Positions 1,642-37,002 of a stretch of 43,307 nucleotides of DNA are shown here, piece after piece; positions within the stretch are counted from its first letter, which is position 1, and each line of letters begins with the position of its first letter. Below the pieces are notes generated by a model. That model did no database searches and had not been told where the DNA came from. It saw only the letters and a list, made by a program, of their open reading frames with translations. The translations under genes were made by a program, and so were the position numbers. The DNA lies in assembly GCA_014727925.1 (NCBI GenBank), contig WJMN01000008.1:1-43307 (forward strand), written 5' to 3'. The DNA is from Microcaldota archaeon (GTDB lineage: Archaea; Micrarchaeota; Micrarchaeia; Anstonellales; Bilamarchaeaceae).

Positions 1642-2457
1642 ATGGCTACCCTATCTGCCAAGCAACTGATGTATGGTTCTATCGGCCTTGCTTTCCTCGG
1701 GGCAATACTTGCCCTGAGCTCAAGCGCCAGCGGGATTCTGGGAATAATCGGAGGCCTTTTTGCAGGACTGGGGGGACTGGGCGCAGTGGTTTTCTTCAAG
1801 TATGGATATCTTGTGGTTCCCCTGATTACAAAATGGCAGAAAATAGTGATGGTCACCGATACCGGATATGAGATTCCGCCCTCCCAGGATGTAATCATAA
1901 AAAAGGTAGGAAACGAGTATTATGCATCCGCTTTTCTTTCAGTAAAGATTTTTGAGTCTGCAACCGAGAGGGGTCCGGAGCAGAATGTTGCCTACAACAA
2001 ATACTTTGAAAGGGCAATTTCCAACATGAGATATGTCGTGAAAATCTGCTATCTCCTCTATGCAGAAGATGTTGCGGAAAAGAGAAGGACAATTGAAACA
2101 AGGAAGGCAGAGTCCCAGCTGCGGCTTGCAAGGGAAAGAGACAAGGCAGACCCGGACGTACTGAAGATGGACAAGTATGAGAGGGAGATAGGGATGTGGG
2201 ACAACCAGCTCCAGCGCCTGATAAAGGGGGTGAGGCCCATGGGCGTGCTTGCCTATGCAATGACTTCTGCCACAGGGGTTTCAAAGGAGGCGGCTGTTGC
2301 CACTTTGAGGGCCCAGGTAAGGGAGCTTAAGGTAACGCTCCAGAATGCCCTCAATGTCCAGGTAGAGCAGCTTACTGCAGATGAAATGAAGAAGTGCTTC
2401 GAATGGGAGTACGCATTCCCTTCAGGGCCAAAGGAACTGGAGGAAAACATATTGTGA
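1642..2457 (+). CDS. Two-TM protein resembling a PrgI/VirB3-type anchor joined to a VirB4 N-terminal domain
   Basis: First gene of a five-gene operon. The 271-residue product has two glycine-rich membrane segments (about 10-27 and 31-53) and then a soluble part. That part has a beta-rich stretch (about 70-105, MVTDTGYEIPPSQD onward), a charged helical stretch (about 135-185) and an end of the form LKVTLQNALNVQVEQLTADE. Those features recall the N-terminal domain that precedes the motor in VirB4/TraC ATPases, and the next gene encodes a VirB4-like motor that lacks this domain. I therefore infer a split VirB4 whose N-domain is tethered to a VirB3/PrgI-like membrane hairpin. What is seen is the TM pair, the helical body and the operon position; the family assignment is inference and needs a profile or structure search. 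Confidence 0.55.
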   Translation: MATLSAKQLMYGSIGLAFLGAILALSSSASGILGIIGGLFAGLGGLGAVVFFKYGYLVVPLITKWQKIVMVTDTGYEIPPSQDVIIKKVGNEYYASAFLSVKIFESATERGPEQNVAYNKYFERAISNMRYVVKICYLLYAEDVAEKRRTIETRKAESQLRLARERDKADPDVLKMDKYEREIGMWDNQLQRLIKGVRPMGVLAYAMTSATGVSKEAAVATLRAQVRELKVTLQNALNVQVEQLTADEMKKCFEWEYAFPSGPKELEENIL

Positions 2458-2466
2458 GGGGATGAT

Positions 2467-4044
2467 GTGGGAAGGCTCTCAATAAGCAAGGTGCCCAACA
2501 ACGACATATCAAGCAGGAATATCCTTGTCCATCCCCCGGAGCCCCCGATGGAGGTGCTCTGCAAGGACCCGGCACAGGGAATTTATGTGGGCAGGACAAA
2601 GATGCTCAACGTTCCTTTTTACTGGACCTACAAAGAGGTCACCAACCCCCATCTTGCAGTGGTGGGGATAACCGGCTCAGGAAAATCCTACTTCATAAAA
2701 ACATTCCTTACCCGCGCTTCCTTCGTCTGGAACTCAAATGCCCTGATAATAGACTGGGCAGGAGAATACAAGCAATGGGTAAGGATGACCGGGGGAAAGG
2801 TTGTTTCCCTTGGAAAGGGCTCTTATCTGAACCTCCTTGACCTTGGGGGAATGAAGCCCTATGACCGCATAAAGCAGGTAATGCGCACGATAGGGATACT
2901 CACCAACATAGACCAGTACCCTGAGCAGAAGCGCCTTACTGAGCAGGCAATTGAAAAGGCCTACAAGGATAACAAGTTCAGGATGGATGAGAGGGAGCAG
3001 AGGGATGAGCTTGGAAGGCCTCTCCAGGCACCCACACTCAAGGACGTTATGACCATCCTGGAAGAAAGATCCTCCATGGGGACATACGAGTTCCCTGCAG
3101 AGCTTGAGAATGCAATATACCGGCTGAAGCAGTTTACCAAGCCGGGAGAGGACTTCTTTGCCCAGCAGAGCACAATCAGCCTTACCGAGCTTACAGAATC
3201 AGGCCTGGTTGCCCTGGACCTTTCAGGGCTCCCGGACGAGCGCTTCCGCGCCCTTGGCGCCCTTGCCATGCTCCAGTTCATAAAGGAGAGGATGAGGGCC
3301 ACAGGCTGGGCCACGGAAAAGGGGCTCCGCCTGATTGTTGTGCTAGATGAGGCCTGGAAAATCGGGAAAGATGAAAACAGCGATGTTGTGATGATAGTCA
3401 GGGAAGGAAGGAAATACAACTTCGGCCTTATTGTGGCTTCACAGAACCCCACAGACATTGCAGAGGCGATTTTCTCAAATGTGGGGACAACATTCATACT
3501 AAAAATCAAGTTTGAAAAGTTCCTGAATTATATACAGGGTACTCTCAATTTCAGCGAATACATGAGGGACGCAATCGCAAAGTTCGGAGTCGGGGAGACC
3601 GCGGTAAACATGGCGTTTTCCAGCGCAAACCCCTACCCCTCCACCTTCCTCATAGACAAGATTGAAGGGGAGGAGCCGATGAGGGAATTTTTCCTGGACC
3701 TCAGCAAGGTCCTTACAAAAGAGCAGAAGGAGGAGATGGACGTGGCAAGAAGTGTTTCATTTAAAAAAGACAGTTTGAGGAGGCGGCTCAGGGAGTTCGG
3801 GCTAAGCGAAGGCCGCATTGAGGACGTGGTGCGTCTTTTTGACCAGAAGAGCAGGCACATGGATATTGCTTCTTTTATAATCCTGCTTGAGCGCTTTGGG
3901 GTTGAAAGGTCAAATATAACTATGTTCCTTAAGGAAATAGGGATTGAGGACACTACAGTGATAAACATATTTACCCTCGCAGACAAGCGAAAGGCAGATG
4001 TGATGGACAGGGACATAACCCAGGTTATCCTAGAGGAGGGGTAG
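2467..4044 (+). CDS. VirB4/TraC-like (HerA-FtsK superfamily) secretion ATPase
   Basis: A 525-residue P-loop ATPase. Walker A GITGSGKS lies at 67-74, IIDWAGEYKQWV follows one strand later as in VirB4 proteins (which usually have a D-x-E-x-EY motif), Walker B is IVVLDEAW near 288-296, and REGRKYNFGLIVASQNP (about 313-328) matches the arginine-rich and sensor region of VirB4. Only about 60 residues precede the motor, so the usual VirB4 N-domain is missing; the upstream gene seems to supply it. About 130 helical residues follow the core. The start is GTG at 2467: GAGGGG sits 5 nt before it, and the ATGs at 2462 and 2465 run into a stop. It probably powers export or assembly at the cytoplasmic membrane. 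HerA of DNA end resection is less likely given the VirB4-like motifs and membrane-protein partners. Confidence 0.8.
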   Translation: MGRLSISKVPNNDISSRNILVHPPEPPMEVLCKDPAQGIYVGRTKMLNVPFYWTYKEVTNPHLAVVGITGSGKSYFIKTFLTRASFVWNSNALIIDWAGEYKQWVRMTGGKVVSLGKGSYLNLLDLGGMKPYDRIKQVMRTIGILTNIDQYPEQKRLTEQAIEKAYKDNKFRMDEREQRDELGRPLQAPTLKDVMTILEERSSMGTYEFPAELENAIYRLKQFTKPGEDFFAQQSTISLTELTESGLVALDLSGLPDERFRALGALAMLQFIKERMRATGWATEKGLRLIVVLDEAWKIGKDENSDVVMIVREGRKYNFGLIVASQNPTDIAEAIFSNVGTTFILKIKFEKFLNYIQGTLNFSEYMRDAIAKFGVGETAVNMAFSSANPYPSTFLIDKIEGEEPMREFFLDLSKVLTKEQKEEMDVARSVSFKKDSLRRRLREFGLSEGRIEDVVRLFDQKSRHMDIASFIILLERFGVERSNITMFLKEIGIEDTTVINIFTLADKRKADVMDRDITQVILEEG

Positions 4045-4045
4045 A

Positions 4046-4513
4046 ATGGCCAGAATGTGCATAATATCCAGGGAAGAAGTTCCTGAGGGAGAAGGAACCC
4101 CCATAAAAGAGGACGCAATAATCCGCACAATAAGGAGGATAAAGGGGAAATTGGGCATACTCCAGAACAACCAGCTGGTTGTTTCGGATGAGCACCTAGA
4201 AGAATACAGGAAAAAGCGGGAAAAATTTGAGAAGATGGCAGTAATCCACACCGCGGTTGCCGCAATTCTCGTGGTAATCCTCACTCTGGGCCCGCTTCTG
4301 CTGGGGGCCCCAATCAACCTGGTAAGCATTTTCTTTGCACTTGTGCTGGGAATAATGATTGCCGCACTTTCCCTGCTAAGCTACGTTCCCGGGCTTGAGG
4401 GGGAGGAAGAGAAAAAAACAAAGAGAACGCCAAAGCAGATTGCAAGGAGCCTTTCTCCTAGGAAAAAGGCAGCGCCACGCCGCCCCAAGGCGAAAAAAGC
4501 AAAGAAGAAGTGA
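4046..4513 (+). CDS. Two-TM operon protein with lysine-rich tail
   Basis: Starts one base after the ATPase stop. The 155-residue product has a cytoplasmic-looking N-terminal domain (CIISREEVPEGEG, then a basic helix and YRKKREKFEKM), two membrane segments near 64-86 and 91-113, and a tail made almost entirely of Lys, Arg, Pro and Ala (PRRPKAKKAKKK). The hairpin topology puts both ends on the same side, probably cytoplasmic, where the basic tail could contact acidic lipids, nucleic acid or the acidic parts of its partners. I do not recognise the family. Its fixed position inside the operon suggests a structural subunit of the same membrane complex. Confidence 0.65.
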   Translation: MARMCIISREEVPEGEGTPIKEDAIIRTIRRIKGKLGILQNNQLVVSDEHLEEYRKKREKFEKMAVIHTAVAAILVVILTLGPLLLGAPINLVSIFFALVLGIMIAALSLLSYVPGLEGEEEKKTKRTPKQIARSLSPRKKAAPRRPKAKKAKKK

Positions 4514-4518
4514 GTTGA

Positions 4519-5247
4519 ATGGTTGAAGATGGAGCACCAGAACCCAAAGTAGATGGCTTCCGGATGACCGCAAAGCTTACCGGAAAGTTTTCTGATGTTG
4601 CAAAGGCCCTCAGCACAATATCTTTCCTCAAGATAGCAAAGGAGAAAGAGGGGGTGGGTGTTGCTTATGTGGAGAGCAGGAGCATAGACAAAACACCCTA
4701 CCTTTTTTCCATGATGAAGTTTAAGAAGGATGAGATAGAGGCAATCTACACAGTCCCGTCCAATGTTTCTCCAACCAAAAGAAAGCTTGATGTGCTTCGC
4801 TACCTGCTCAACATGATAACCCTAATTGAGCCCCATTACGCTATTGACAACAAGGTGGTCTACCAGCTTGTTGAGGAGACCATGAGGCAGATGGAAGATT
4901 ATACCAGCGGAGACTACAAATCCCTATACAAAGAATACGACCAGCTCAAGAGGGAGGTGGAGAACCTTCGCCGCTCTTCTATGATATACCGCAACCAGGT
5001 GAAAAGCCTTTCCAAGGAAAATTATGAGCTGAAAAACGAGAACGATGAGTACAAGGTGAGATTTGAAAAACTCAGGGGAGGGATATCCGACAGTGTCCTG
5101 AGCACAAGAATCCAGAACTGGATAATGGACCATAATGGCTCCATAAACATTGTGGAGTTTGCAAAGTACAACCGGGTTCCTGAGGCCAGGGTGGAAGACG
5201 TTCTGAACCGCCTGGTGAGGCAGGGGTATCTGGAGCAGATTCAGTGA
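4519..5247 (+). CDS. Coiled-coil protein with C-terminal winged helix
   Basis: Fourth gene of the operon, 5 bases after its neighbour. The 242-residue soluble protein has an alpha/beta N-terminal region (about 12-125), a coiled coil (about 130-190, with YDQLKREVENLRR and KENYELKNENDEYK) and a final domain RIQNWIMDHNGSINIVEF to VEDVLNRLVRQGYLEQI. That last part has the helix-turn-helix and wing pattern of small archaeal winged-helix domains. It is probably a cytoplasmic adaptor of the membrane complex; direct DNA binding is possible but unproven. No enzyme motif is visible and I cannot name a family. Confidence 0.65.
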   Translation: MVEDGAPEPKVDGFRMTAKLTGKFSDVAKALSTISFLKIAKEKEGVGVAYVESRSIDKTPYLFSMMKFKKDEIEAIYTVPSNVSPTKRKLDVLRYLLNMITLIEPHYAIDNKVVYQLVEETMRQMEDYTSGDYKSLYKEYDQLKREVENLRRSSMIYRNQVKSLSKENYELKNENDEYKVRFEKLRGGISDSVLSTRIQNWIMDHNGSINIVEFAKYNRVPEARVEDVLNRLVRQGYLEQIQ

Positions 5248-5251
5248 GCAT

Positions 5252-7807
5252 ATGGTGGATATAAAGGACTTGAAGATAAAGAAGCGCACCTTCCAGTTTG
5301 ATGTAAAGAGGCGCTATTCAAACGAACTCAAATTCAAGAAGGTGGAAAAGACACCACTTGAGAAAATAAAGGAGTTCCTAGAGTCCTTTAGGAAACCAAA
5401 GGGAGAAGTGGTTCTGGAGGATAAAGAGGAGGAAAAGGAGAAAGGGGGAACTGCTCGGCTTGGGGAAAAGGAGAAAGAAGAGCCCCTGGTAAGCACAAAT
5501 CTCCTCCTGAAGGCAGGAGGAGGCACGATCCTTATTTTCCTTCTCCTGATCTCTGCATTCCTTTTCATACAGTCAGGGGTATATGCACAGGAAGTGGTTG
5601 TGAATCCCCCCGATTCCCAGGCAATCCATTCCGAAGTCATTGCTTATGACATACTTACTGCAAGCCAGGAGGAAAATCCCCGGGACCCGACACATACAGC
5701 ATTTGTGAGGATGGAGCTGCAGGGGGAAAAAACCGCAACAATTCCCATATCCCTTGAGGCCTACAACCGCGTGGTGCCCTCCTCTGTCTATGTTTTGCGC
5801 AGCCACCGCTACCAGGCAGAAACCTACCCCGAATTCCTCAATTCATTTAAGCAACGGATGTTCCACTGGGACATTCCGGTAAACGAGATAGGTATGGGTG
5901 AGCTGGCCACTCTTCCCTCACAATCCCTGGTTGTGGTGCCCAGCGGATACATACCCCAGCAGATGCTTTCAGGCAGCGGCACACGCATAACCGACCTCCT
6001 TGATAGGGGGGCAACAGTTGTGTATGTGGGCCAGCCCTTTTTCCGGATGTTCAATGAGCAGGGCGCAGTTGTTTCATCAAACCCTGCCGCACTTGACCCG
6101 ATGCGCGTTACTTTTGACGAGAGCACCCAGCTGGTTTCTACCAATAACCTGAGCATGGGCAGCCCGCTATATGCACTTGGGGGAGGTTCCATGATTTGGG
6201 GCTCAGTAAGCTCAGTTTCATATGGGGAGGGATACCTGATTGCATTCCCCCAGACGCTTGACGGCGGCTGGGCCAGCGGTGAAGAAGCAGCCGCCGATAT
6301 TTACCGCCTCATAGTGGAGATGCCCTGGATTTCCCCGGCAGGGAGCGCTTCATCAGAAATTGGGGTTTCCACGAACCTCACAGTGGCAGAGCTTTACACC
6401 AGCGTGTTTGAAGGAGACCGCAAGTATTTGCGGGTATATGGATTTGATGAAGAGAGCGGGACCGGATTCAATGAGGTAATTTATGCAAAGAAGAGCACAA
6501 AGGGGGAGATATACACAGAAGGCCACGATATTGTCCCCGGCGGGCTCGGCCCAACGGAAATGGACATAATGGCAGACCTGCGAGAAGAAGGCGGGGAGGC
6601 AAGGCTCTTTCTTGTAATTACCCATATTGGGGAAGAAGTAGACAGGACCCCGGTTGCCACCACCAAGGTAGCCCTGAATTCCCAGCCAACATTCCCTTAC
6701 GAATTTCTCCTTCCCAGCGGAAACTACGTACTCAACATAATGGATACTGAGGACAACAGGTATGCACGTTCATACATGCGGGTAGGCACGCTGGATATTG
6801 TGCAGGGCTCCCACGCTATATCCACAGACACATACAGGTTCTCATTTTACCTAGATGGGCAGCGTGTGCCGGTTTCAGGAAGCGTTTATGTGAATGGAGA
6901 CCCGTCTAATGCACGGGAGTTTGAAAATACAGAGTCAATTGAGCTTGAGGCCTCCAGAATGGTCGGGGGGCCCCTTGAGGGGAACCAGGAGCACACTTTC
7001 ACTTTTGAGCTGGGCGATTTCCAGTTTACTGAAACTGTGTATAAGCGCGCACCATCATCAATATTTGATGAGCCTCTGTTTGTGGCCGCCGGAATAATCG
7101 GGATAATTGCACTTGGGATTGGCTTCCTTTTTGCAAGGAAAACCGAAACCATGTATGGCTTGGATATCCCTGACTTCCCTCCGCAGACAACAAATAAAAT
7201 CCCCATGAAAAAGGAAACCCTCCTTAAAATCTTCACCAAGCTCAATGAAAAGTACAAATGGAAGCACACCCCCCTCACACTGAGCGAGATAAAGAGCGGC
7301 TTCCGGGGAATGCTACATGAAGGAAAGCCGATTTTCATAAGCGATTACAATCTTGAGTACCTGCTTCTCCGCCTGATAGGGATGGGAGAAGTAAAGAAGG
7401 AGATAAAGTATTATGGGCTCACATCCTGGGAAGAAGATACAGGATACAGCATGAGATACCTTGCTTTCTTCCGGAAGCTGAGGGACATCTGCATAAACAA
7501 CGCGGTTCCCTTTACCCATTTTGAAAAATCGGAGAATTATGATTCTAGGATAACAATTCTCGGCCAGAAGATTTTCGTGCATCTTTATGATGAGCCGGGA
7601 AGGGTGATACCGAATGCACTTTCCTCCCTTGGAAAAGGCCTTAACATAATTCTATTTGAAGAGGAGGCGGAAAAGAGCGAATTCTACGAATACCTTTCCA
7701 GCGGCTACCAGGGAGGAACCATCCTCAAACTTGAGATACAGGCAGGCTCGGTTCTCCTCAAGACCTTTAGGGAATTTGAAGAGATGGTCAAGGAGATGAA
7801 GGTTTAG
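5252..7807 (+). CDS. Large bitopic surface protein of the VirB4-like operon
   Basis: The 851-residue product ends the operon. A charged cytoplasmic segment (1-85) is followed by a membrane segment (about 88-108), an ectodomain (about 110-605), a second membrane segment (about 609-629, VAAGIIGIIALGIGFLF) and a cytoplasmic domain of about 220 residues. Ectodomain residues about 190-370 alternate hydrophobic strands and helices (SLVVVPSGYIPQQM, GATVVYVGQPFF, GYLIAFPQTLDGG), recalling a class I glutamine-amidotransferase-like fold used as a surface module. Ig-like beta regions with YTEGHDIVPGG and LPSGNYVLNI follow. The cytoplasmic tail starts PDFPPQTTNKIPMKKETLL and matches nothing I recognise. 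It may be the outward-facing component of the machine. The gene runs 20 nt into the convergent glycosyltransferase gene. Confidence 0.75.
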   Translation: MVDIKDLKIKKRTFQFDVKRRYSNELKFKKVEKTPLEKIKEFLESFRKPKGEVVLEDKEEEKEKGGTARLGEKEKEEPLVSTNLLLKAGGGTILIFLLLISAFLFIQSGVYAQEVVVNPPDSQAIHSEVIAYDILTASQEENPRDPTHTAFVRMELQGEKTATIPISLEAYNRVVPSSVYVLRSHRYQAETYPEFLNSFKQRMFHWDIPVNEIGMGELATLPSQSLVVVPSGYIPQQMLSGSGTRITDLLDRGATVVYVGQPFFRMFNEQGAVVSSNPAALDPMRVTFDESTQLVSTNNLSMGSPLYALGGGSMIWGSVSSVSYGEGYLIAFPQTLDGGWASGEEAAADIYRLIVEMPWISPAGSASSEIGVSTNLTVAELYTSVFEGDRKYLRVYGFDEESGTGFNEVIYAKKSTKGEIYTEGHDIVPGGLGPTEMDIMADLREEGGEARLFLVITHIGEEVDRTPVATTKVALNSQPTFPYEFLLPSGNYVLNIMDTEDNRYARSYMRVGTLDIVQGSHAISTDTYRFSFYLDGQRVPVSGSVYVNGDPSNAREFENTESIELEASRMVGGPLEGNQEHTFTFELGDFQFTETVYKRAPSSIFDEPLFVAAGIIGIIALGIGFLFARKTETMYGLDIPDFPPQTTNKIPMKKETLLKIFTKLNEKYKWKHTPLTLSEIKSGFRGMLHEGKPIFISDYNLEYLLLRLIGMGEVKKEIKYYGLTSWEEDTGYSMRYLAFFRKLRDICINNAVPFTHFEKSENYDSRITILGQKIFVHLYDEPGRVIPNALSSLGKGLNIILFEEEAEKSEFYEYLSSGYQGGTILKLEIQAGSVLLKTFREFEEMVKEMKV

Positions 7808-8960
7808 GGGCCTGTTTCCCATCGTTTTTATCCAGGATTTTGCCATAAAGCTCAACAAGCGCCTCAACACGCTTGTCCGCATCATATTCCCTGGCTATTG
7901 TCTTGCACTTCTCCCCCATTCCCTTCCCGTTTTCAAGAGCAAGCAGCAGTTTTTCCCTAAAATCAACCTCTTCTTTGAACAGGTATCCTGTTTCCCCGTC
8001 TTTTATGAAATCAGATGAGCCGGATTTCTCAGGCGCAACAACCGGGAGCCCCGCAGCCATTGCCTCAAGCGCCACAAGCCCCTGTGTGTCAAAGTATGAG
8101 GGGAATGCAAATGCATCTGCAGCACCATAATAGTCCGGAAGCTCCTTTTTGGGCACAAAGCCTGTAAATATGAAGTATTCCTCCAGGCCCCTGAGCGCCA
8201 CAAGGTTCTTGTAATACTCATCTGCAGGCCCTTTCCCCACAATTACAAACACCACGTTTGATTTCTTGTTTATGATGGACTGGGCCTCATTTATCAGCAG
8301 CTCAAGGTTCTTTTCTTTCACCACTCTCCCCACATGGAGCACGATTTTTTTCTTCCCAAGCTTGTGTTTTTTCCTTATCCACTCCCCATCTCCCTTTGAG
8401 TACGTACGGTAATTTATTCCAGCCGGCATTACAGTTATGTTTGGGATGCTGTGTGTTTCCAGGATTTTTTTGGTGAATTCGCTGGGCACAAGGACCTTGT
8501 CAAAAAACCTGTAATACCACCTTAGGTATTTCCATGAAACATCCTCAAGGAATTTCTGCATATCCTCACGGGTTGTAATGTAGTGGGTTGCGCTGGGCAC
8601 CATGGTGTGGAAAGAAGCTATGCAGGGCTTTTTCAGGGTCCTCGCACAGTCCACAGCCGCAAGGCCGGTCGTTGCTATGCCATGTGAGTGTATCAGGTCA
8701 ACGTCCATTTCCTTAAGCAGTTTCCGGGCAGAGCGGAAAGGGAACAGGGCAAGGCGGTAATCGGGGTACGGCTTGAATGAAGCCGAAGTGAAATAGTATA
8801 CTTTCTCATCCTTGTTTTCCTCTTTCTGCTTTTTCGTGCCAGGAGTGAGTATGAAAACTTCATGCCCTCTTTTCTCCAGCCCCTTCCTATAGTTGAGTAT
8901 GGCGGTTACTACCCCATCGTTGTTTGGCAGGTAGGTATCTGTAAAGTATGCTATTTTCAT
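7788..8960 (-). CDS. Family 4 (GT-B) glycosyltransferase
   Basis: The 390-residue product opens MKIAYFTDTYLPNNDGV, contains DLIHSHG, and has the C-terminal donor-site region SYFDTQGLVALEAMAAGLP typical of GT4 enzymes that add sugars to lipids or polysaccharides. The EX7E motif is present as D-x7-E, with Asp in the first position. Nearest known groups are diacylglycerol glucosyltransferases and phosphatidyl-myo-inositol mannosyltransferases; the acceptor cannot be read from sequence. Its ATG overlaps the prs stop by 4 nt, so it is translationally coupled and probably the last gene of pyrB-pyrI-prs. It may act on membrane lipids or the glycans of the surface proteins encoded here. Its 3' end overlaps the convergent operon by 20 nt. 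Confidence 0.88.
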   Translation of the reverse strand: MKIAYFTDTYLPNNDGVVTAILNYRKGLEKRGHEVFILTPGTKKQKEENKDEKVYYFTSASFKPYPDYRLALFPFRSARKLLKEMDVDLIHSHGIATTGLAAVDCARTLKKPCIASFHTMVPSATHYITTREDMQKFLEDVSWKYLRWYYRFFDKVLVPSEFTKKILETHSIPNITVMPAGINYRTYSKGDGEWIRKKHKLGKKKIVLHVGRVVKEKNLELLINEAQSIINKKSNVVFVIVGKGPADEYYKNLVALRGLEEYFIFTGFVPKKELPDYYGAADAFAFPSYFDTQGLVALEAMAAGLPVVAPEKSGSSDFIKDGETGYLFKEEVDFREKLLLALENGKGMGEKCKTIAREYDADKRVEALVELYGKILDKNDGKQAPKPSSP

Positions 8961-9814
8961 TCTTTTTCCATCCCCGGGATTTTTTCAAGGTGTTTTTTGA
9001 TTGATACTTTTGAAACTTCAGTAGGTATGGTGTCTGAAACAAATACTTCTCCGGACTCCCGCAGCTTCTCTAGGGAATTTTTGAGAAAGAACCCGTGCGA
9101 TGCAGTGCACACTACCCTTTCTGCCCCCCCTCTTTTCACATTTTCTACTGCCCTGAGCATTGTTCCTCCGGTTGAAATCATGTCATCTATTATAAGCACC
9201 GGCTTCCCGGAAACATCATTCTCCATCTTAACTTCCTTTATCTCCCGGTATGCCTCCTTTCCTTCCCGGTAATCTCCCCTCTCCTTTTTCATGCTGCTGC
9301 CTCCGAATTCCTCTACCAGGTAGTTTGCCCCTTCATCCGGGCTCATTATTTCCAGCTCCTCGCCGGCAATTTCCCTGGCTTTTTCAACCAGGTTGCGGTT
9401 TAGGGAGAGATTCATTATCTTCAGGCCCCCATACTCAAATTCACCTTCTTTCTTGATAAAATGGCAGTCAAATGTCACCAGCAGGTCCACCCCCTCCCTC
9501 TTCAGCAGGTTGCAGAGCACCTTTGCGCTTTTTATTTCTCCTTCTTTAAACACCTTGTCCTGCCGTGAGTATGGGAGGTAGGGAACAACAAGGGTTATGC
9601 TTTTTGGGCTCTGCTCCCGTATTGCCCGCAGCGCAAGCAGGGTCTGGAATATAGAGGAGTCCTGCTCAGGGTAAAGCCGGTTAAGCAGAAGCACGTCCTT
9701 TCCCCTGGCTTCCCCGGCAGAGGGGACTCTCACGTAGCTATCTCCATCGGGGAACGTCTTTATTTCCACGTTTGGCTCGTACAAGTCTGAAAAGGAGGGG
9801 CAGACAAATCTCAT
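8957..9814 (-). CDS. prs: Ribose-phosphate pyrophosphokinase
   Basis: Makes PRPP from ribose 5-phosphate and ATP for purine, pyrimidine and histidine pathways. The 285-residue length matches the short archaeal form. Seen are FPDGDSYVRV, the catalytic region VPYLPYSRQDKVFKEGE, and the PRPP-binding loop VLIIDDMISTGGTM. The flexible loop is FKEGEIKSAKV rather than the bacterial RKDR-type sequence, as expected for archaeal enzymes. It lies 55 bp after pyrI with a hairpin between, and its stop overlaps the glycosyltransferase start (ATGA). Placing PRPP supply next to pyrBI fits joint control of pyrimidine synthesis. The ATG at 9814 follows TTTTTTAACCC and could use its own weak promoter. Confidence 0.93.
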   Translation of the reverse strand: MRFVCPSFSDLYEPNVEIKTFPDGDSYVRVPSAGEARGKDVLLLNRLYPEQDSSIFQTLLALRAIREQSPKSITLVVPYLPYSRQDKVFKEGEIKSAKVLCNLLKREGVDLLVTFDCHFIKKEGEFEYGGLKIMNLSLNRNLVEKAREIAGEELEIMSPDEGANYLVEEFGGSSMKKERGDYREGKEAYREIKEVKMENDVSGKPVLIIDDMISTGGTMLRAVENVKRGGAERVVCTASHGFFLKNSLEKLRESGEVFVSDTIPTEVSKVSIKKHLEKIPGMEKE

Positions 9815-23854: not shown

Positions 23855-26209
23855 ATGCTTGATAAAAGATTCTCACAGGCAATTGAAGAAAAATGGCAAA
23901 CAGAATGGGAAAAAAGGGGCACATATACTTTTAGGGGGCTAGATGAGAGACCAACATACGCAATAGATACCCCGCCCCCTTTTACCAGCGGGGAGCTGCA
24001 CATGGGCCACACCCTCTCTTACGCATATTTTGATTTTGTTGCCCGCTACAAGCGCATGCGGGGATTTAATGTGTATTACCCGCAGGGATGGGACACCCAG
24101 GGATTTCCCACAGAAACAAAGGTTGAGAAAAAATGCGGAAGGCTTCCCTGCGGCCTGTTCAGAGAAAAGTGCAGGGAATGGACGGCCCAGATGATTGACA
24201 AGATGAAGGACACCATGGTCAGGCTGGGTTTTTCCCCGGACTGGGAGCACCAGTACCTTACCATGGACAGCGAATACCACCGGAAAGTCCAGCTTTCCCT
24301 CCACTTAATGTATGACAAGGACATGGTCTACCGGAGCGAACATCCTGTTTTCTGGTGCTACAAGTGCAACAGCGCCCTTGCAAAAACAGACACAGACGAC
24401 CTGGAGAGGGAAACCCTGCTCAACCACATCCTTTTTAAGGGCCCAGAAGGCGAAGGCCTTGTTATCGCTACTACCAGGCCGGAACTCATGTATGCCTGCG
24501 TTGCGGTGATGTACCACCCAGATGATGAGCGCTACAAAAACCTTGAAGGAAAAGAAGTTACTACTGCATTGGGCAAGAAGGTGCCGGTGCTCCCGGACAG
24601 GGACGTGGACAAAGAATACGGAACCGGCCTCCTGATGGTCTGCACATTCGGAGACAAGCAGGACATAGTGTGGGCATACCGGCACAAGCTTCCGATAGTC
24701 TCAATCCTTGATGGCAGGGGAAAGCTCACCGGAACAGGTGGGTTTGATGGCCTAAAGCCAAAGGAAGCAAGAGAAAAGATAATAGAGAAATTCAGAGAAG
24801 AGGAGAAAATCCTAAAGCAGGAAAAGACCACCCAGGTGGTCAAGGTCCACGACCGCTGCAAGACACCTGTGGAATATGCTCTTTCAAAGCAGTGGTTTGC
24901 AGACATAACAAATCACCGGGAGGAAATAAAGAAGATGGCCCGGGAAGTCCGTTGGGTTCCGGAATTCGGCATAAACTATCTTGATGACTGGGCAGACTCT
25001 GTTGAGTGGGACTGGGTGATTTCAAGGCAGAGGCATTTCGGAACACCGCTTCCCTTCTATTACTGCCCTAAATGCGGGGAAACAGAAAAGGCGGATGAGC
25101 TTCCCTTTTACCCGGAGAAAGCGCCCGAGAAGGCCTGCAGCTGTGGAGAGAAGATGAAGCCCGAGGAATCGGTGTGCGACTGCTGGGTGGACTCTTCCAT
25201 AACCCCCCTGATGGTTGCAGGATGGCCTGACCGGGAAGGGTGGGAAAGGATGTACCCGAATGCGCTCCGGCCCCAGGGAGTGGAAATCATCCGCACCTGG
25301 GCATTCTACACCATCTACCGCTCAGGAATAGGGATAACCGGAAAAAAGCCGTGGGATGTTGTTTTGCTTAACGGAAATGTGCTTGCCCCGGATGGAAGGA
25401 AGATGAGCAAGTCGCTGGGAAACGTAATTTCCCCCACTGACCTTCTAAAACAGTATCCTGCCGATGCCCTGAGGCAGTGGGCAGCAATGAGCGGGGCCAT
25501 GGCCAAGGACCGGCCGTTTTCCTACGAAGACATTAAGTTTGCCAAATCGTTCTTGAACAAGGTATGGAATGCGGCAAAGTTCGTGCAGAAAAGCCTGGAA
25601 GGCTATGACGGCTCTTCCCCCCCGCTTTCAGATATTGACAAATGGATACTAGAATCCATGAACAAAGCAACAGAAGAGTGCACAGATGCTATGGAGAATT
25701 ATGAATTCCACAGGTGCGCAAGGAAGCTGCACGATTTTTTCTGGCACGATTTCTGCGATGATTACCTAGAGTATGTAAAGTACCGCATCTATGGGGAAGA
25801 TGAAGAATCCAGAAAGGCGGCGCAGCATACGCTCCACGAAGTGCTCTATTCCTTCATAAAGCTCCTTGCTCCGATTTCCCCCCATATCTCAGAAGAGATT
25901 TACCACGAGATGTTCAAATCCCGGGAAGGAGAAGACACAATCAACTTTATGCCCTGGCCCGAGCCCGGCCCACGGTTTGCTAAAGAGCACCGCAAAGTTG
26001 GGCAGATGCGGGAACTTGTTTCAAAAATCCGCCAGGCAAAGGCATCAGAAAAGATTTCCCAGGGTGCAGAAATACTCCTTTATTTACCAGGTACAGAACT
26101 TCCGGAAGAAATGCTAGAAGAAGTGAAAAATATAACCAGGATAAAGGAAATTAATGAAGGGGAATTCAAAATAGAGAAAGTAGAAGAAGAGAAAGAAAAG
26201 GAAGCTTAG
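23855..26209 (+). CDS. valS: Valyl-tRNA synthetase
   Basis: Charges tRNA-Val and edits threonine. The 784-residue class I enzyme has TPPPFTSGELHMGHTLSYA with the HIGH motif as HMGH, YYPQGWDTQGFPTE, the editing-domain ATTRPELMYACVAV, DWVISRQRHFGTPLP, a cysteine-rich zinc insertion (CPKC...CSCG), and GRKMSKSLGN near 515-524. The C-terminal anticodon domain is present and ends in a short charged helix. The size fits the archaeal short form. TATA-like GTTTAATAAGC at 23815-23825 predicts a start near 23846. The stop overlaps the convergent pilin-like gene by 4 nt inside a hairpin. Confidence 0.97.
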   Translation: MLDKRFSQAIEEKWQTEWEKRGTYTFRGLDERPTYAIDTPPPFTSGELHMGHTLSYAYFDFVARYKRMRGFNVYYPQGWDTQGFPTETKVEKKCGRLPCGLFREKCREWTAQMIDKMKDTMVRLGFSPDWEHQYLTMDSEYHRKVQLSLHLMYDKDMVYRSEHPVFWCYKCNSALAKTDTDDLERETLLNHILFKGPEGEGLVIATTRPELMYACVAVMYHPDDERYKNLEGKEVTTALGKKVPVLPDRDVDKEYGTGLLMVCTFGDKQDIVWAYRHKLPIVSILDGRGKLTGTGGFDGLKPKEAREKIIEKFREEEKILKQEKTTQVVKVHDRCKTPVEYALSKQWFADITNHREEIKKMAREVRWVPEFGINYLDDWADSVEWDWVISRQRHFGTPLPFYYCPKCGETEKADELPFYPEKAPEKACSCGEKMKPEESVCDCWVDSSITPLMVAGWPDREGWERMYPNALRPQGVEIIRTWAFYTIYRSGIGITGKKPWDVVLLNGNVLAPDGRKMSKSLGNVISPTDLLKQYPADALRQWAAMSGAMAKDRPFSYEDIKFAKSFLNKVWNAAKFVQKSLEGYDGSSPPLSDIDKWILESMNKATEECTDAMENYEFHRCARKLHDFFWHDFCDDYLEYVKYRIYGEDEESRKAAQHTLHEVLYSFIKLLAPISPHISEEIYHEMFKSREGEDTINFMPWPEPGPRFAKEHRKVGQMRELVSKIRQAKASEKISQGAEILLYLPGTELPEEMLEEVKNITRIKEINEGEFKIEKVEEEKEKEA

Positions 26210-26216
26210 GCTTCCT
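26199..26216. terminator. Hairpin whose loop holds both stop codons of valS and the pilin-like gene
   Basis: AGGAAGC-TTAG-GCTTCCT is a perfect 7-bp stem with loop TTAG at 26206-26209. That loop holds the valS TAG and the opposing TAA. The minus-strand continuation is T-rich (CTTTTCTTTCTCTTC). Confidence 0.4.
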
Positions 26217-26709
26217 CAACATGGGCAACTATTCTTCCGCTTATTGTATGCTCAGGGCCTCCTGAATCACAATCAGGATTAACTTCCGGGGCGCAGCTTA
26301 CGTAGTTTATGCTTACCCTTAGCTTTTCTGTTTCGCCCTTTATTGCACCGAGCTCATTAAGGGGCATATCGATATCATATTCAGTCCCCTGCGGAATCAT
26401 TACATTATATGAATAGTCTTCATAAGTGGTGCCATCATTTGCAATGATTTTTGCTCCTCTCAGCCTTATGTTGTAGCCAAGTCCATTGTTTATGCGGAAT
26501 CCAAGCTGGGGAGTTCCGCCTTCATCTATGTAAAGGAGGTGCCCTGTGCATGCAAGGTCGGGCTGAAGGGTACATTCTTCTGCAATCAGGTAAGAAGGAT
26601 TGAAAACTCCGGTAGCCATGATTGCCCCAATTACTACGACCAGGGCAACGAGGGCCCAGCCGTAAGTCATCAGGTATTCCATAGCCGCTTGGCCTTTTTT
26701 AGCACTCAT
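26206..26709 (-). CDS. Pilin-like protein with class III signal peptide
   Basis: The 167-residue product starts MSAKKG|QAAMEYLMTYGWALVAL. This is the archaeal class III signal layout: basic N-terminus, cleavage after Gly, then Q-x-x-x-E-x-x-x with a hydrophobic helix that stays as the pilus core. The rest is a beta-rich domain with cysteine pairs (EECTLQPDLACTG and YVSCAPEVNPDCD) that could form disulfides outside. It is expected to be processed by an EppA/FlaK-type prepilin peptidase and assembled at the surface. A TATA tract shared with the divergent TPR-AAA gene predicts a leaderless mRNA at ATG 26709. No pilus ATPase lies next to it. Confidence 0.85.
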   Translation of the reverse strand: MSAKKGQAAMEYLMTYGWALVALVVVIGAIMATGVFNPSYLIAEECTLQPDLACTGHLLYIDEGGTPQLGFRINNGLGYNIRLRGAKIIANDGTTYEDYSYNVMIPQGTEYDIDMPLNELGAIKGETEKLRVSINYVSCAPEVNPDCDSGGPEHTISGRIVAHVEEA

Positions 26710-26742: not shown

Positions 26743-26772
26743 TTTAGTATGAATAAAACAGGCAGTGGTGCG

Positions 26773-28410
26773 ATGTCTGAAAAAAAACCCCAGTTAGTTG
26801 ATGCCGGGAGCTATTACAAAATTGCTAATGATTATTATGAGAAAGGCAACTACGAGAAGGCAATAGAAAACTACAATATGGCCATCCTGCTAAACCCGCT
26901 TTTTTCTGAGGCATACTTCAACCGCGCCCTGAGCTACTACCAGATGAAAAATTACGATAAGGCGGTCGCGGATTACAATGAAGCGGCCGAGCTTGACCCG
27001 AAAAACCCAATCATATTCAATAACAAGGGGGACGCATTTTACCGCAAGCAGGACTACACAAGCGCAATAAAGGATTACGACAAGGCGATAATGCTCAACC
27101 CCAACTACCTCAAGGCATATTACAACCGCGCCCTCTCTTATGCCTCCCTAGAAGACTATGAGAAGGCAGTGGAGGATTTCAGCAAGGTTGTGCAGCTTAA
27201 GCCGGATTTTTCAGAGGCATATCACCTCCGGGGGCTGGCATACGAGTATGCAGGGGATGTGGACAGCGCAATTTCTGATTATGAAAAAGCCCTGGAGCTC
27301 AACCCCGAGCTGGCAGAGGCAAAAAGCCACCTGGAATCTGCAAAGAGCAAGAAGCAGACAGGAGGCGGCGGAGAAGCCGGAAAAGAGGGAAAGACTTCAG
27401 AGATAAAAGTGCTCAAGAAGCCGGACATGAACTTCACCGATGTTGCCGGAATGGAGAGAATGAAGGAGGAGATAAGGGAGGCAGTAATTTATCCCATGGC
27501 AAAGCCGGAGCTTGCAAGGAGGTATGGTAAGCTCGGAGGAGGCGGAATAATAATGTACGGTCCGCCCGGATGCGGAAAGACATTTGTGGTAAAAGCGGCC
27601 GCTGGAGAATCAGAATCATCATTCATAAATGCAAAGCTTTCAGACCTCCTGGACATGTATGTGGGAAACACGGAAAAGAACATTCACAAGGTATTTGAGA
27701 CCGCGAGGAAGAATACTCCCTGCATACTGTTCTTTGATGAAATAGACGCGATTGGGGGAAGAAGGGATGCACAGCAGGGCGCCCAGTACATGAGAATGGC
27801 GGTAAACCAGATGCTTTACGAGATGGACGGGGTTGAGGCAAACAACGAGAACGTCCTGGTTATTGCTGCTACAAATGCGCCCTGGGATGTGGACCCTGCG
27901 CTAAGGAGATCCGGCCGTTTCAGCAAAACTCTCTATGTATCCGAGCCCGATTTTGGCTCAAGGGAGGCAATCATAAAGATACATGCAAAGAAGAGGCCGG
28001 TTTCAAAGTACATCCCCTATAAGCGCCTTGCCCTTGCAACTTCAGGCTATGCCTCTTCAGACCTTAAATCGATAGTGGATGAGGCAGCAGCAATTCCATG
28101 GAGGGAGGCGTTCAAGAGCGGGAAGGAGAGGCCGGTTGTTACAAGAGACTTTATAAAGGCAATAAGAAAAAAGAAGAGCTCTCTTCCGCCCTGGTATGAG
28201 CAGGCAAACAAGCAGATAGGCAAGCAGGAAGAGATAACCATCGTGGACGGGAAGGAGCACAAGAAGGTCACAGAGAGCAAGATGGGCGCTGGGGAGAAGC
28301 AGGCATTCAAGGATCTCCTAGATGTAATCCAGAAGCGCAACAAGTGGTACAACAAACTCTGGCTCAAATTCCTAAAGAACGTTGCCCTGATTTTCCCAAT
28401 ACCCATCTGA
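26773..28410 (+). CDS. TPR-repeat AAA ATPase
   Basis: A 545-residue fusion. Five TPR repeats (about 9-180; for example YEKGNYEKAIENYNMAILLN) are joined by a Gly/Lys linker to one AAA module of the classical (Vps4/katanin/CDC48-like) clade. That module has FTDVAGMERMKEEIREAV, Walker A GPPGCGKTF near 258-266, Walker B ILFFDEIDAIGG near 317-328, and the second region of homology ATNAPWDVDPALRRSGRF. It ends with a small helical domain and a hydrophobic tail FLKNVALIFPIPI. One AAA ring with a protein-binding N-domain suggests a substrate-remodelling or membrane-associated unfoldase; the substrate is unknown. The promoter argues for ATG 26773, 24 nt inside the track's start. Confidence 0.88.
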   Translation: MSEKKPQLVDAGSYYKIANDYYEKGNYEKAIENYNMAILLNPLFSEAYFNRALSYYQMKNYDKAVADYNEAAELDPKNPIIFNNKGDAFYRKQDYTSAIKDYDKAIMLNPNYLKAYYNRALSYASLEDYEKAVEDFSKVVQLKPDFSEAYHLRGLAYEYAGDVDSAISDYEKALELNPELAEAKSHLESAKSKKQTGGGGEAGKEGKTSEIKVLKKPDMNFTDVAGMERMKEEIREAVIYPMAKPELARRYGKLGGGGIIMYGPPGCGKTFVVKAAAGESESSFINAKLSDLLDMYVGNTEKNIHKVFETARKNTPCILFFDEIDAIGGRRDAQQGAQYMRMAVNQMLYEMDGVEANNENVLVIAATNAPWDVDPALRRSGRFSKTLYVSEPDFGSREAIIKIHAKKRPVSKYIPYKRLALATSGYASSDLKSIVDEAAAIPWREAFKSGKERPVVTRDFIKAIRKKKSSLPPWYEQANKQIGKQEEITIVDGKEHKKVTESKMGAGEKQAFKDLLDVIQKRNKWYNKLWLKFLKNVALIFPIPI

Positions 28411-28470: not shown

Positions 28471-29700
28471 ATGATAATAAGGAATGCCAAATTTTACCTT
28501 GGGGGAAGAGTGGTCAAAAAAGATATACTTATTGAAAAGGGAAAAATAGCAGGCTTTGGAAAATTCAAGGGCGAGGCAATGGATGCAGAAGGGCTGTTTG
28601 CCCTTCCCGGGCTTATAGACCCGCATGTCCATCTGCGGGATCCTGGGATGACACACAAGGAGGATTTTGAAACAGGGACAAGGGCCGCGCTTGCAGGAGG
28701 CTGTACCACTGTGCTGGACATGCCAAATACCAGACCTCCATGCACAAGCCTTTCAGAATACAGGAAAAAGAAAGAGATTGCAAAAAGGAAGGCACTCTGC
28801 GATTATGGGCTGCATTTTGGGGCATCCGGAAGCAATATCCAGGGAGTTAAAAAGGCAAGGCCCCGCTCCCTGAAACTGTACATGGGAGAATCCACGGGCA
28901 GGATGCATGCAGGGAATATGCTTACACTCTGGAGGCACTTTAGCAATTTTCCAAAAAACCGCCCCCTGATCGTACATGCAGAAGACCAGGAAACCCTTGC
29001 TGCAATGAAAAAGGAAGGCCGGGGAAGGCCTGAGGCCGCAGAAAAAATAGGGGTGGAGAAGGCACGAATCCTTGCCCAGGAAGCAGACCGGGTAATTTAC
29101 TTTGCCCATACCACCCTTTTTGAAACAGTCCACCTTGCAAAGATATGGAAAAAATCCCTAATTGAGGTAAGCCCGCACCACCTTTTCCTTTCAAGGGAAA
29201 AAGACGGAAAAAGGCTGAAGGAATTTTCAAAGGTTTATCCCCCGCTGAGGAGCGAGGGGGAAAGGAGAGAACTCTGGGGTGCACTGTACCATGTGGATGC
29301 TGTGGGCAGCGACCATGCCCCGCATACCCCTGCAGAAAAGAGAAAAGGGGCAGCGGGATTCCCCGGGCTTGAAACCTCTCTTTCACTGTTCCTGGATGCT
29401 TACAACAGGGGCGAAGTGGAACTGCCATGGATAATAGACAGGATGGCAGAGAGCCCTGCAAGGATATTTGGGCTCAAGTCCAAGGGAAGAATTGACAAGG
29501 GTTATGATGGCGATATAACCCTGGTGGATTTGAAGGAAGAATGGAAGGTAAAAGCCGATGAGTTTGCCTCAAAGTGCGGATGGACGCCTTATGAGGGCTT
29601 TAGGCTAAAGGGGAAGGTAAAAAAAGTAGTTTTGAGGGGAAAGCTTGCAGCAGATGAATCAGGAGTAACAGGAAAAACCAAGGGAAAGAACGTTCTTTAG
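28471..29700 (+). CDS. pyrC: Dihydroorotase
   Basis: Cyclises carbamoyl aspartate to dihydroorotate, the step after pyrBI. The 409-residue amidohydrolase has GLIDPHVHLRDPG (metal histidines), TTVLDMPNTRPP, a Lys in the LKLYMGES segment that would be the carbamylated ligand, HAEDQETL, VSPHHLFLS and GSDHAPHTPAEK with the catalytic Asp. Length and motifs suit class I dihydroorotase. TATA-like TTTTAAATATTC at 28431-28442 predicts a start near 28462, just before ATG 28471. It is far from pyrB in this window, so the pathway is not one operon here. The stop overlaps a convergent pilin-like gene by 4 nt. Confidence 0.93.
   Translation: MIIRNAKFYLGGRVVKKDILIEKGKIAGFGKFKGEAMDAEGLFALPGLIDPHVHLRDPGMTHKEDFETGTRAALAGGCTTVLDMPNTRPPCTSLSEYRKKKEIAKRKALCDYGLHFGASGSNIQGVKKARPRSLKLYMGESTGRMHAGNMLTLWRHFSNFPKNRPLIVHAEDQETLAAMKKEGRGRPEAAEKIGVEKARILAQEADRVIYFAHTTLFETVHLAKIWKKSLIEVSPHHLFLSREKDGKRLKEFSKVYPPLRSEGERRELWGALYHVDAVGSDHAPHTPAEKRKGAAGFPGLETSLSLFLDAYNRGEVELPWIIDRMAESPARIFGLKSKGRIDKGYDGDITLVDLKEEWKVKADEFASKCGWTPYEGFRLKGKVKKVVLRGKLAADESGVTGKTKGKNVL
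29685..29698. terminator. 14-bp palindrome at the convergent pyrC/pilin-like ends
   Basis: AAAGAACGTTCTTT is a perfect palindrome ending at the overlapping stop codons (29697-29700). The minus-strand continuation is CCCTTGGTTTTTCC. It resembles the stop-linked palindromes at the ends of ileS and valS. Confidence 0.35.
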
Positions 29701-30134
29701 GTGCTCCCGGGGTTCGGCTGCGGGGAAATAACCACAGTGCCCCCTTCATTGAATAATTCAACCCGGTACCTTCCGCTTCCTAATTCTTCCCCAAGGAAAT
29801 CTCCTTTATCTTCCATGGGGAACTGGGTGGTGCGGACCACGTCATTTTTTTCTCCTGCAGTGAGCAGGGTGAATATTATCTCATGTTCAGTTATTTCTGC
29901 GGCTTCCACAGTCCCAGGGATATATATCTCAGTAATCATTGCAGAGCCGTCACCCATATGCCCTATTGCATTTACCAGGAATGAAATGCGGGCAACTGAA
30001 AAATGGACCTGAAGAAGGGCAAGGTCTGCTCTTATCGCATCCATCTTGAAGAACATGATGTAGAGCAGAGGGATGAGTATAAGCAGGATGAATCCGATGA
30101 CCACAAGAAGTTCGTTGCTAACCTGTCCTCTCAT
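29697..30134 (-). CDS. Second pilin-like protein (class III signal)
   Basis: The 145-residue product begins MRG|QVSNELLVVIGFILLILIP, matching the archaeal QxSxExxxL class III signal with cleavage after Gly3. The hydrophobic segment runs to about residue 28. A helical stretch (MDAIRADLALLQVHFSVAR) and a beta-rich domain follow, ending in a Pro/Asn-rich tail. It resembles minor archaeal pilins or small archaellum-like accessory proteins, but I cannot name a family. Its start overlaps the end of the CBS protein gene by 17 nt, so the two are probably translationally coupled, an unexpected partnership. Confidence 0.75.
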   Translation of the reverse strand: MRGQVSNELLVVIGFILLILIPLLYIMFFKMDAIRADLALLQVHFSVARISFLVNAIGHMGDGSAMITEIYIPGTVEAAEITEHEIIFTLLTAGEKNDVVRTTQFPMEDKGDFLGEELGSGRYRVELFNEGGTVVISPQPNPGST

Positions 30135-31466: not shown

Positions 31467-32147
31467 ATGGACCTCCCCCTCACGTCCATGGTGCGAAAGC
31501 CCAGCTGGAAGCAGCTTCTTATGGAGTTAGTGGCATCTGAGAAGCTCGACCCATGGGACATAGATATTGTTGCGGTGGCCGACGGGTTCAACAAACTGGT
31601 AAAGGAGATGGAGAAGTTTGATTTCAGTGTTCCCGCAAACGTAATTCTCGCATCTGCAATCCTGCTAAAATACAAGAGCAATGCACTAAGGATATTTGAG
31701 GAGGCTCCGGAGGAAATCCCTGAACCTGAGCCTGTGGAGGTGGGAGATGAACAGGTGCCCCAGCTCAGGATAAAGTCAAGGATACCTCCCAAATTCCCCC
31801 TGACTCTTAACCAGCTTATTTCTGAAATGGAGAAAGTAATCAAATATGATGAAGCTGAGCCCAAGCCCCGAATCCAAAAAAAAACAAGGGAAGTAGTGGA
31901 GATGCCCCTCCCGGATTATGATATAGAGAAAGAAATGGAAAAGCTGTATTCACAGATGCAGGAGGAGAAGGATTCTGAAGACCTTGTGCTTTTCTCAAGG
32001 CTGGTCAAAGAGAAAACCCCCCGGGAAACAATACTAACTCTTTCCCCGCTACTCCACCTTGCCCAGGAAAAAGCAGTGGGGCTCAGGCAGGACAGGTTCT
32101 GGGGGGAAATTTTCATAAAGGTGAATGGATGGAACCCAAGCGCCTGA
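31467..32147 (+). CDS. scpA: Segregation and condensation protein A
   Basis: Kleisin subunit that closes the SMC ring for chromosome compaction. The 226-residue product shows the N-terminal kleisin helices (SWKQLLMELVASEKLDPWDIDI, close to the family's typical LDPWDID) followed by VPANVILASAILLKYKS. A Pro/Glu-rich linker and a C-terminal domain follow (LVLFSRLVKEKTPRETILTLSPLLHLAQEK), which contacts the SMC head. The next gene, scpB, overlaps by 19 nt, the usual pairing. The SMC gene itself is not in the window. Confidence 0.9.
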   Translation: MDLPLTSMVRKPSWKQLLMELVASEKLDPWDIDIVAVADGFNKLVKEMEKFDFSVPANVILASAILLKYKSNALRIFEEAPEEIPEPEPVEVGDEQVPQLRIKSRIPPKFPLTLNQLISEMEKVIKYDEAEPKPRIQKKTREVVEMPLPDYDIEKEMEKLYSQMQEEKDSEDLVLFSRLVKEKTPRETILTLSPLLHLAQEKAVGLRQDRFWGEIFIKVNGWNPSA

Positions 32148-32641
32148 TCGAAGCAGCATTGTTCATGAGCGGGAGGGAGCTTTCGGTCCCTGAGCTCAAG
32201 AAGCTTACAGGGATTGCTTCAGCAGGGCACATAAAGTCCCTGCTTGATGAGCTACAGGGAGATTACCGGGAAAGTGCACTTGAGATATTTGAGGCTGACG
32301 GCTCTTACCTGATGAAGGTAAAGGACAACTATGTTGAGAGCGTGAAGCACTTTGCCCAGTCTGAGGCCATAAGCAGATCCGCCCTGAGAACTCTTTCCTA
32401 TGTTGCAAGGCACAACGGCATAATGAAATCCGAAGTAGTCAAGCGAATCGGCACCGTTGTTTACAGCGATGTAAAAGAGCTTGTTGAAAACGGATTTATA
32501 CTCCAGAGGAAATACGGCAGGAGCTCAAAGTTGTTTCTTACCGACAAATTCAGGGCATATTTTGAGCAGCAGAAGCCGGAGGAGGCAAGCCCAGAAGTGC
32601 CCCGGATGGCTCCCCCGGAAGAAGATGAGTTTGAGGGATAG
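32129..32641 (+). CDS. scpB: Segregation and condensation protein B
   Basis: Dimeric winged-helix partner of ScpA. The 170-residue product has two winged-helix units: KRLIEAALFMSGRELSVPEL with IKSLLDELQGDY, then SRSALRTLSYVARHNGIMKS with VKELVENGFILQRKYGRSS. The tail is Pro/Glu-rich. It overlaps scpA by 19 nt, which supports tight co-translation. Its stop is directly adjacent to that of the convergent kinase gene. Confidence 0.88.
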   Translation: MEPKRLIEAALFMSGRELSVPELKKLTGIASAGHIKSLLDELQGDYRESALEIFEADGSYLMKVKDNYVESVKHFAQSEAISRSALRTLSYVARHNGIMKSEVVKRIGTVVYSDVKELVENGFILQRKYGRSSKLFLTDKFRAYFEQQKPEEASPEVPRMAPPEEDEFEG

Positions 32642-36465: not shown

Positions 36466-37002
36466 ATGGCCATAAGACCAGCTAAATGCGTAAGAGACGG
36501 AGAAAAAGTAGCCTGGACCAGGCACTCCAAGAAAAAGCCAAGGAAGTCTTACATAAGGACAATGCCCCACAAGGACCTGAACCAGCAGAGGATGGGCGTG
36601 GACAAAGATACCTATGACGCAGCCTACCACCTAGTATGCCGGAACGACAAGCTCATAATCCGGGACAATGCTATGGAGGCGGCAAGGCAGTCGGCAAACA
36701 AGGTTCTTGAGGATGCAATGCCGGCAAATTACTTTTTCCTTGTGAGGGTTTACCCCCACCATGTAATCAGGGAAAATAAGATGGTTGCAGGAGCGGGCGC
36801 AGACCGTATCCAGAAGGGTATGCGCAGGGCTTTTGGAAAGCCCATGGACAGGGCGGTCCGCCTGAAGAAGAACCAGAAGCTGCTTTCAGTTTATGTAAAG
36901 AAATCTGAGATAAGTGAGAACGCGGTCAAGGAGGCATTCCGCAGGGCAAGGATGAAGCTTTCCGGGAAGTTTTCCATGGTTGAAGGAGGGACTGATTCTT
37001 GA
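36466..37002 (+). CDS. rpl10e: Large-subunit ribosomal protein L10e (uL16 family)
   Basis: L10e sits near the peptidyl transferase centre and the A-site tRNA of the 50S subunit. The 178-residue product has IRPAKCVRDGEKVAWTRHSK at the N-terminus, NYFFLVRVYPHHVIRENKM and GADRIQKGMRRAFGKPM with the basic loop that reaches the catalytic centre, and AFRRARMKLSGKF near the end. Length is normal for archaea. Its TGA overlaps the TTG start of the next gene, so the two are coupled. The promoter and leader indicate it starts a transcription unit. Confidence 0.97.
   Translation: MAIRPAKCVRDGEKVAWTRHSKKKPRKSYIRTMPHKDLNQQRMGVDKDTYDAAYHLVCRNDKLIIRDNAMEAARQSANKVLEDAMPANYFFLVRVYPHHVIRENKMVAGAGADRIQKGMRRAFGKPMDRAVRLKKNQKLLSVYVKKSEISENAVKEAFRRARMKLSGKFSMVEGGTDS

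Follow-up and report, generated by a model that had tools for sequence, protein, structure and literature searches.

A pair of adjacent genes in the 43,307-nucleotide stretch of DNA analyzed here (hereafter the window) probably encodes a single VirB4/CedB-type ATPase divided over two chains, which would form the inner-membrane ring of a chromosomal type IV secretion machine akin to the Ced and Ted systems. Type IV secretion systems have VirB4 as their signature protein, which is described as one chain throughout the literature that we searched. The window belongs to a Micrarchaeota genome, since the closest named relatives of its motor are found in Micrarchaeota MAGs and are at most 89% identical. 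The first gene of the pair (positions 1642 to 2457, plus strand) encodes a 271-aa protein in which a membrane hairpin is followed by a cytosolic VirB4 N-domain (approximately residues 66 to 271), while the second (2467 to 4044, plus strand) encodes a 525-aa HerA/VirB4-class motor ATPase devoid of such a domain. Both are the ORFs on which an earlier sequence-only reading was built, and both were recovered at these positions. The two genes are spaced by 9 nt, and inspection of the sequence shows a Shine-Dalgarno-like GAGGGG (2456 to 2461, plus strand) ahead of the GTG start of the motor gene. In 150 examined pairs (not all of them distinct genomes, since several routes led to some of the contigs), the motor gene is immediately preceded on the same strand by the N-domain gene, with a median gap of 9 nt and a gap of at most 60 nt in 136. 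Since the same two ORFs recur in all these pairs, the split is not an artifact of assembly or sequencing.

The motor is a HerA/FtsK-class ATPase similar to VirB4 and CedB, with intact Walker motifs. Walker A (GITGSGKS) corresponds to residues 67 to 74 (2665 to 2688, plus strand) and Walker B (IVVLDE) to residues 290 to 295 (3334 to 3351, plus strand), in which D294 and E295 are conserved in more than 97% of 145 homologous motors. The protein matches DUF87 (1.3e-19) and AAA_10 (2.6e-13) in Pfam, and CedD (1.4e-23), CedB (7.3e-23), TraC and VirB4 in NCBIfam, all far under the equivalog cut-offs; as this holds for both curated Ced models, it is the equivalog of neither CedB nor CedD. Its residues 36 to 357 align to residues 251 to 549 of CedB. 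The length ahead of Walker A has a median of 67 residues over the 145 motors, compared with 262 to 275 in Gram-positive TrsE/VirB4 and 243 to 279 in the fused VirB4 of the same phylum. The sequence-only reading had put this length at about 60 residues and supposed that the upstream gene supplies what is missing. Both points hold, since Walker A starts at residue 67 and the approximately 206 residues following the hairpin, added to the 66 preceding Walker A, amount to approximately 272. At the other end of the protein, the C-terminal domain of the motor (approximately 98 residues) is found a second time in several loci, encoded by a small gene of its own immediately downstream of the motor gene (L094, L096, L098, L102, L110, L117, L121, L124, L188, L189 and L193).

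Structural prediction provided the first indication of what the upstream protein is. An AlphaFold2 model of the 271-aa protein, built from 54 natural homologs (mean pLDDT of 85), displays a membrane hairpin followed by an α/β domain. When 350,542 PDB chains were searched with Foldseek, R388 TrwK/VirB4 came out on top (probability 1.00, E = 1.3e-3), the runner-up being a hundredfold worse (E = 0.16), and the superposition with TrwK/VirB4 is a remote one, with a TM-score of 0.37 over 166 columns. Among viral models, the top match (E = 2.9e-5) was gp155 from Bacillus phage G, which carries the annotation of a VirB-like type IV secretory protein, and the third is labeled "component of type IV transporter system." As modeled, the upstream protein thus has a VirB4 N-domain fold, rather than the unrelated fold that would have spoken against the sequence-only reading.

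Sequence families point in the same direction. The window protein itself matched no VirB4 family, nor any other curated family, in a direct HMM search of Pfam and NCBIfam; a Pfam scan of 32 of its homologs revealed no coherent family, and a search of PDB chain sequences with the N-domain profile returned coiled-coil chance matches only. When 32 diverse homologs were compared with NCBIfam, CedB was the family matched by most members (3 of 32). In the CedB model NF041017, residues 49 to 219 of L040 align to residues 31 to 195 (E = 4e-4), residues 161 to 248 of L138 to residues 135 to 219 (E = 2e-3) and residues 180 to 256 of L152 to residues 147 to 217 (E = 0.023). Since the N-domain homologs match the N-domain of CedB and the motor matches its ATPase, the pair is colinear with one CedB/VirB4. 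Profile-profile comparison of the N-domain family with VirB4 N-domains gave scores of 31 to 33 (E of approximately 7e-4, probability of 26%), with 16 to 17 for a reversed profile and at most 20 to 26 for 60 block-shuffled profiles, and the alignment pairs a strand, two long helices and the next strand of both domains. This hhalign comparison only became informative once the VirB4 N-domain profile was deepened, with fused archaeal VirB4 included; shallow profiles gave no significant match to TrsD, the TrsE N-domain or TrsC. These lines of evidence, each modest alone, are independent and concordant, and they identify the upstream protein as the VirB4 N-domain, as had been proposed from the sequence; in the window, this domain is found on the separate upstream chain only.

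The split is a trait of the phylum. The N-domain protein is present in 59 of 59 relatives, and it was found in 133 of 146 genomes from throughout the phylum. None of the copies examined has the N-domain and the motor fused; they are always separate ORFs, in the window and elsewhere, in agreement with the division originally suspected. One apparent fusion of 783 aa (L099) was rejected because the ORF reads through a masked run of N. Ordinary full-length VirB4 occurs sporadically, in 15 of the 146 genomes, which makes the split form the established and nearly universal one. As its N-domain and ATPase reside on two chains, not in one polypeptide, we have filed the pair as a two-chain VirB4-like variant instead of an ordinary VirB4. 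In the genome to which the window belongs, such motors number exactly two, each accompanied by an N-domain gene of its own. Our search of the open-access literature found no earlier description of this split in Micrarchaeota. Another genome encodes a full-length VirB4 of 961 residues (G077:C39:52732-54093) that appears to hold two N-domain copies in one chain.

Precedents exist in the complementation between CedB and CedD and in the standalone N-domain-like TrsD/TraD. The system by which crenarchaea import DNA, Ced (PMC11868833, PMC9905601), is likewise archaeal and chromosomal. Its CedB and CedD display the same order of membrane segment, VirB4-like N-domain and HerA/VirB4 ATPase, and work with a VirB2-like pilin and a VirB6-like channel; the CedB model is matched by both the motor and the N-domain homologs. 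However, each of them is a single chain bearing all three parts, including its own ATPase, and the portion of a VirB4 N-domain that is covered differs between the two, which together may replace VirB4 (PMC11868833), whereas Micrarchaeota encode the N-domain and the ATPase as two proteins. R388 TrwK/VirB4 shares the N-domain fold and the motor family but has both domains in one chain, with VirB3 (TrwM) separate (PMC12857230). The full-length VirB4 of Micrarchaeota (L181-L183) are from the same phylum, with the same domain order and ATPase family, but are fused and have no membrane hairpin evident before the N-domain.

HerA-type motors hexamerize, which would suit an unlikely alternative in which the motor is a self-sufficient HerA-type hexamer and the upstream protein an accessory N-domain-like subunit of the TrsD/TraD type. 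TrsD/TraD, a standalone protein, is remotely similar to the N-domain of VirB4 and is encoded immediately ahead of VirB4 in pGO1/pSK41-type plasmids and in most Patescibacteria (PMC12102498), which is reminiscent of the arrangement described here. However, no membrane hairpin is evident in the TrsD/TraD sequences compared, and the neighboring TrsE keeps a full N-domain, with 262 to 275 residues before Walker A versus 67 here. Furthermore, the match between TrsD and the N-domain family profile is not significant (E = 0.03 to 0.06), and the CedB match is colinear with the very part that the motor is missing. The Micrarchaeota pair differs from both Ced and TrsD/TraD in that its motor has lost the N-domain and would depend on a separate chain for it.

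The genomic context bears on whether the pair serves secretion at all. Downstream of the motor gene, also on the plus strand, lie conserved operon genes for a 155-aa protein with a membrane hairpin and a basic tail (4046 to 4513), a coiled-coil protein with a C-terminal winged-helix-like region and weak MarR/TrmB matches (4519 to 5247) and an 851-aa protein with two membrane segments flanking a large region (5252 to 7807). This order, beginning with the N-domain and the motor, is kept in most of 80 named loci. In relatives (L124:9847-10212, L037:2312-2635), the hairpin protein has CxxC zinc-ribbon-like N-terminal motifs, apparently lost in the window copy. The window copy of the pair adjoins purB, with no pilin or polytopic gene beside it, and this, together with the winged-helix-like protein in the operon, would fit a membrane-tethered DNA translocase unrelated to secretion (for example in chromosome segregation or repair) that derives from a VirB4 ancestor. 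We consider this improbable, to the same degree as an accessory subunit of the TrsD/TraD type, because the operon of relatives has pilins or polytopic genes directly upstream, and because the second copy in this very genome has both a polytopic gene and a pilin-like ORF.

VirB2/CedA1-like pilins are encoded just upstream of the pair in three relatives (L113, L120 and L123), in which the best matches to TrbC/VirB2 (7e-6) and T4SS_pilin (3.5e-5) score under the Pfam cut-offs, the two pilin families being in agreement. In L120, the N-domain gene is directly preceded by a tandem array of three VirB2-like pilin genes, whose products start with signal-peptide-like sequences (L120:5824-7060). Other lineages, among them Ca. 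Fermentimicrarchaeum limneticum with its complete genome (L124), have between one and four genes for polytopic proteins of approximately 310 to 400 residues immediately upstream. The second locus in this genome combines a pilin-like ORF of 81 residues (a weak match) and a polytopic gene with the N-domain, motor and coiled-coil genes. The resemblance of the polytopic family to VirB6/CedA is limited to topology and context: family, PDB sequence and fold searches did not confirm it as VirB6, and in a Foldseek search with a model of pLDDT 69, R388 VirB6 was found at ranks 4 and 32, neither being significant. A profile comparison between the pilins and the polytopic proteins (E = 0.005) is suggestive only. 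Elsewhere in this genome, six polytopic genes, VirB6/CedA-like by topology, are arranged in tandem (G000:C32:44792-51313, equivalent to L237:3658-10359), and further homologs are found on the small contigs C28, C33 and C37, a striking expansion for a 1-Mb genome.

The membrane hairpin (1657 to 1836, plus strand) is predicted by both the AlphaFold model and hydropathy, with one helix at residues 6 to 26 and another at residues 32 to 65, of which the first part would cross the membrane. The sequence-only reading had likened these two transmembrane helices to VirB3/PrgI; the helices themselves are borne out by the model, but their identity with VirB3 is not, since the N-domain family profile has no significant similarity to TrsC/PrgI (VirB3-type) profiles (E = 0.011 to 0.064). 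VirB3 is a small VirB4-binding protein with a pair of membrane helices; such a hairpin is present here, as part of the N-domain protein. Fusions of VirB3 to VirB4 are known from bacteria. That the upstream protein is VirB3 fused to a VirB4 N-domain, as such fusions, the topology of the hairpin and its position ahead of VirB4 might suggest, is the least likely of the alternatives, given the lack of profile similarity, the membrane segments that CedB and CedD bear at their own N termini and the absence of VirB3 homologs said to characterize archaea (PMC11868833). A VirB3 origin is also unnecessary, since the hairpin sits just where CedB and CedD carry these segments.

If the pair is a two-chain VirB4/CedB-type ATPase, the N-domain chain would be anchored in the membrane by its hairpin and hold the motor chain under the channel, while a ring of six motor chains would spend ATP on moving a substrate or assembling the pilus. 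We infer the binding of the two chains, the hexamer and its stoichiometry, as well as the substrate, the direction and the transfer of DNA or protein.

The number of N-domains need not equal that of motors. In several families, a single motor gene is preceded by two N-domain genes in tandem (L144-L171, L121, L124, L125, L128 and L138); in L124, these lie at 6337 to 7152 and 7157 to 7990, and the motor gene at 8001 to 9539. In the two best-sampled families (20 genomes), the upstream copies and the downstream copies each group in a clade of their own, with 100% support and long branches, which indicates that they separated before these families arose and have since remained distinct proteins. 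The pair in G006 (L047) consists of sister sequences, and thus corresponds to an independent, younger duplication. The VirB4 assembly of R388 is a hexamer of dimers connected via the N-domains, in which the inner N-domain touches VirB3 and the outer touches VirB8, and the need for the outer copies is called unclear (PMC12857230). By analogy, where two N-domain genes accompany one motor gene, one N-domain could be the inner, motor-bearing one and the other could take the outer place of the hexamer of dimers; lacking a second motor, the latter would make an outer ring without ATPase, an economical form of the outer VirB4 place. It is a tentative proposal, somewhat less probable than not, that tandem genes in this way supply two specialized N-domains for every motor and give an inner ring of N-domains and motors surrounded by an ATPase-free ring of N-domains. 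If so, the outer six copies of VirB4 in bacterial machines would be structural, which could help explain seemingly spare motor copies in related bacterial machines, and the numbers of N-domains and motors could evolve separately. Two N-domains per motor would also make the unexplained outer VirB4 ring testable.

A phylum in which N-domains and motors are separate, often in a 2:1 ratio, is a natural case of these two roles being kept apart. Moreover, nearly every sampled Micrarchaeota genome, although small, keeps such a machine, which bears on cell-cell interaction in DPANN archaea.

Several other features of the window were apparent. On the minus strand, two small proteins (26206 to 26709 and 29697 to 30134) have N termini resembling the class III signal peptides of archaeal pilins. 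Between them, a single 553-residue ORF (26749 to 28410) was recognized by eye from its translation as TPR repeats fused to an AAA+ ATPase. Adjacent ScpA-like and ScpB-like genes (31467 to 32641) and a gene for a 588-residue coiled-coil protein (36999 to 38765) were likewise identified by eye.
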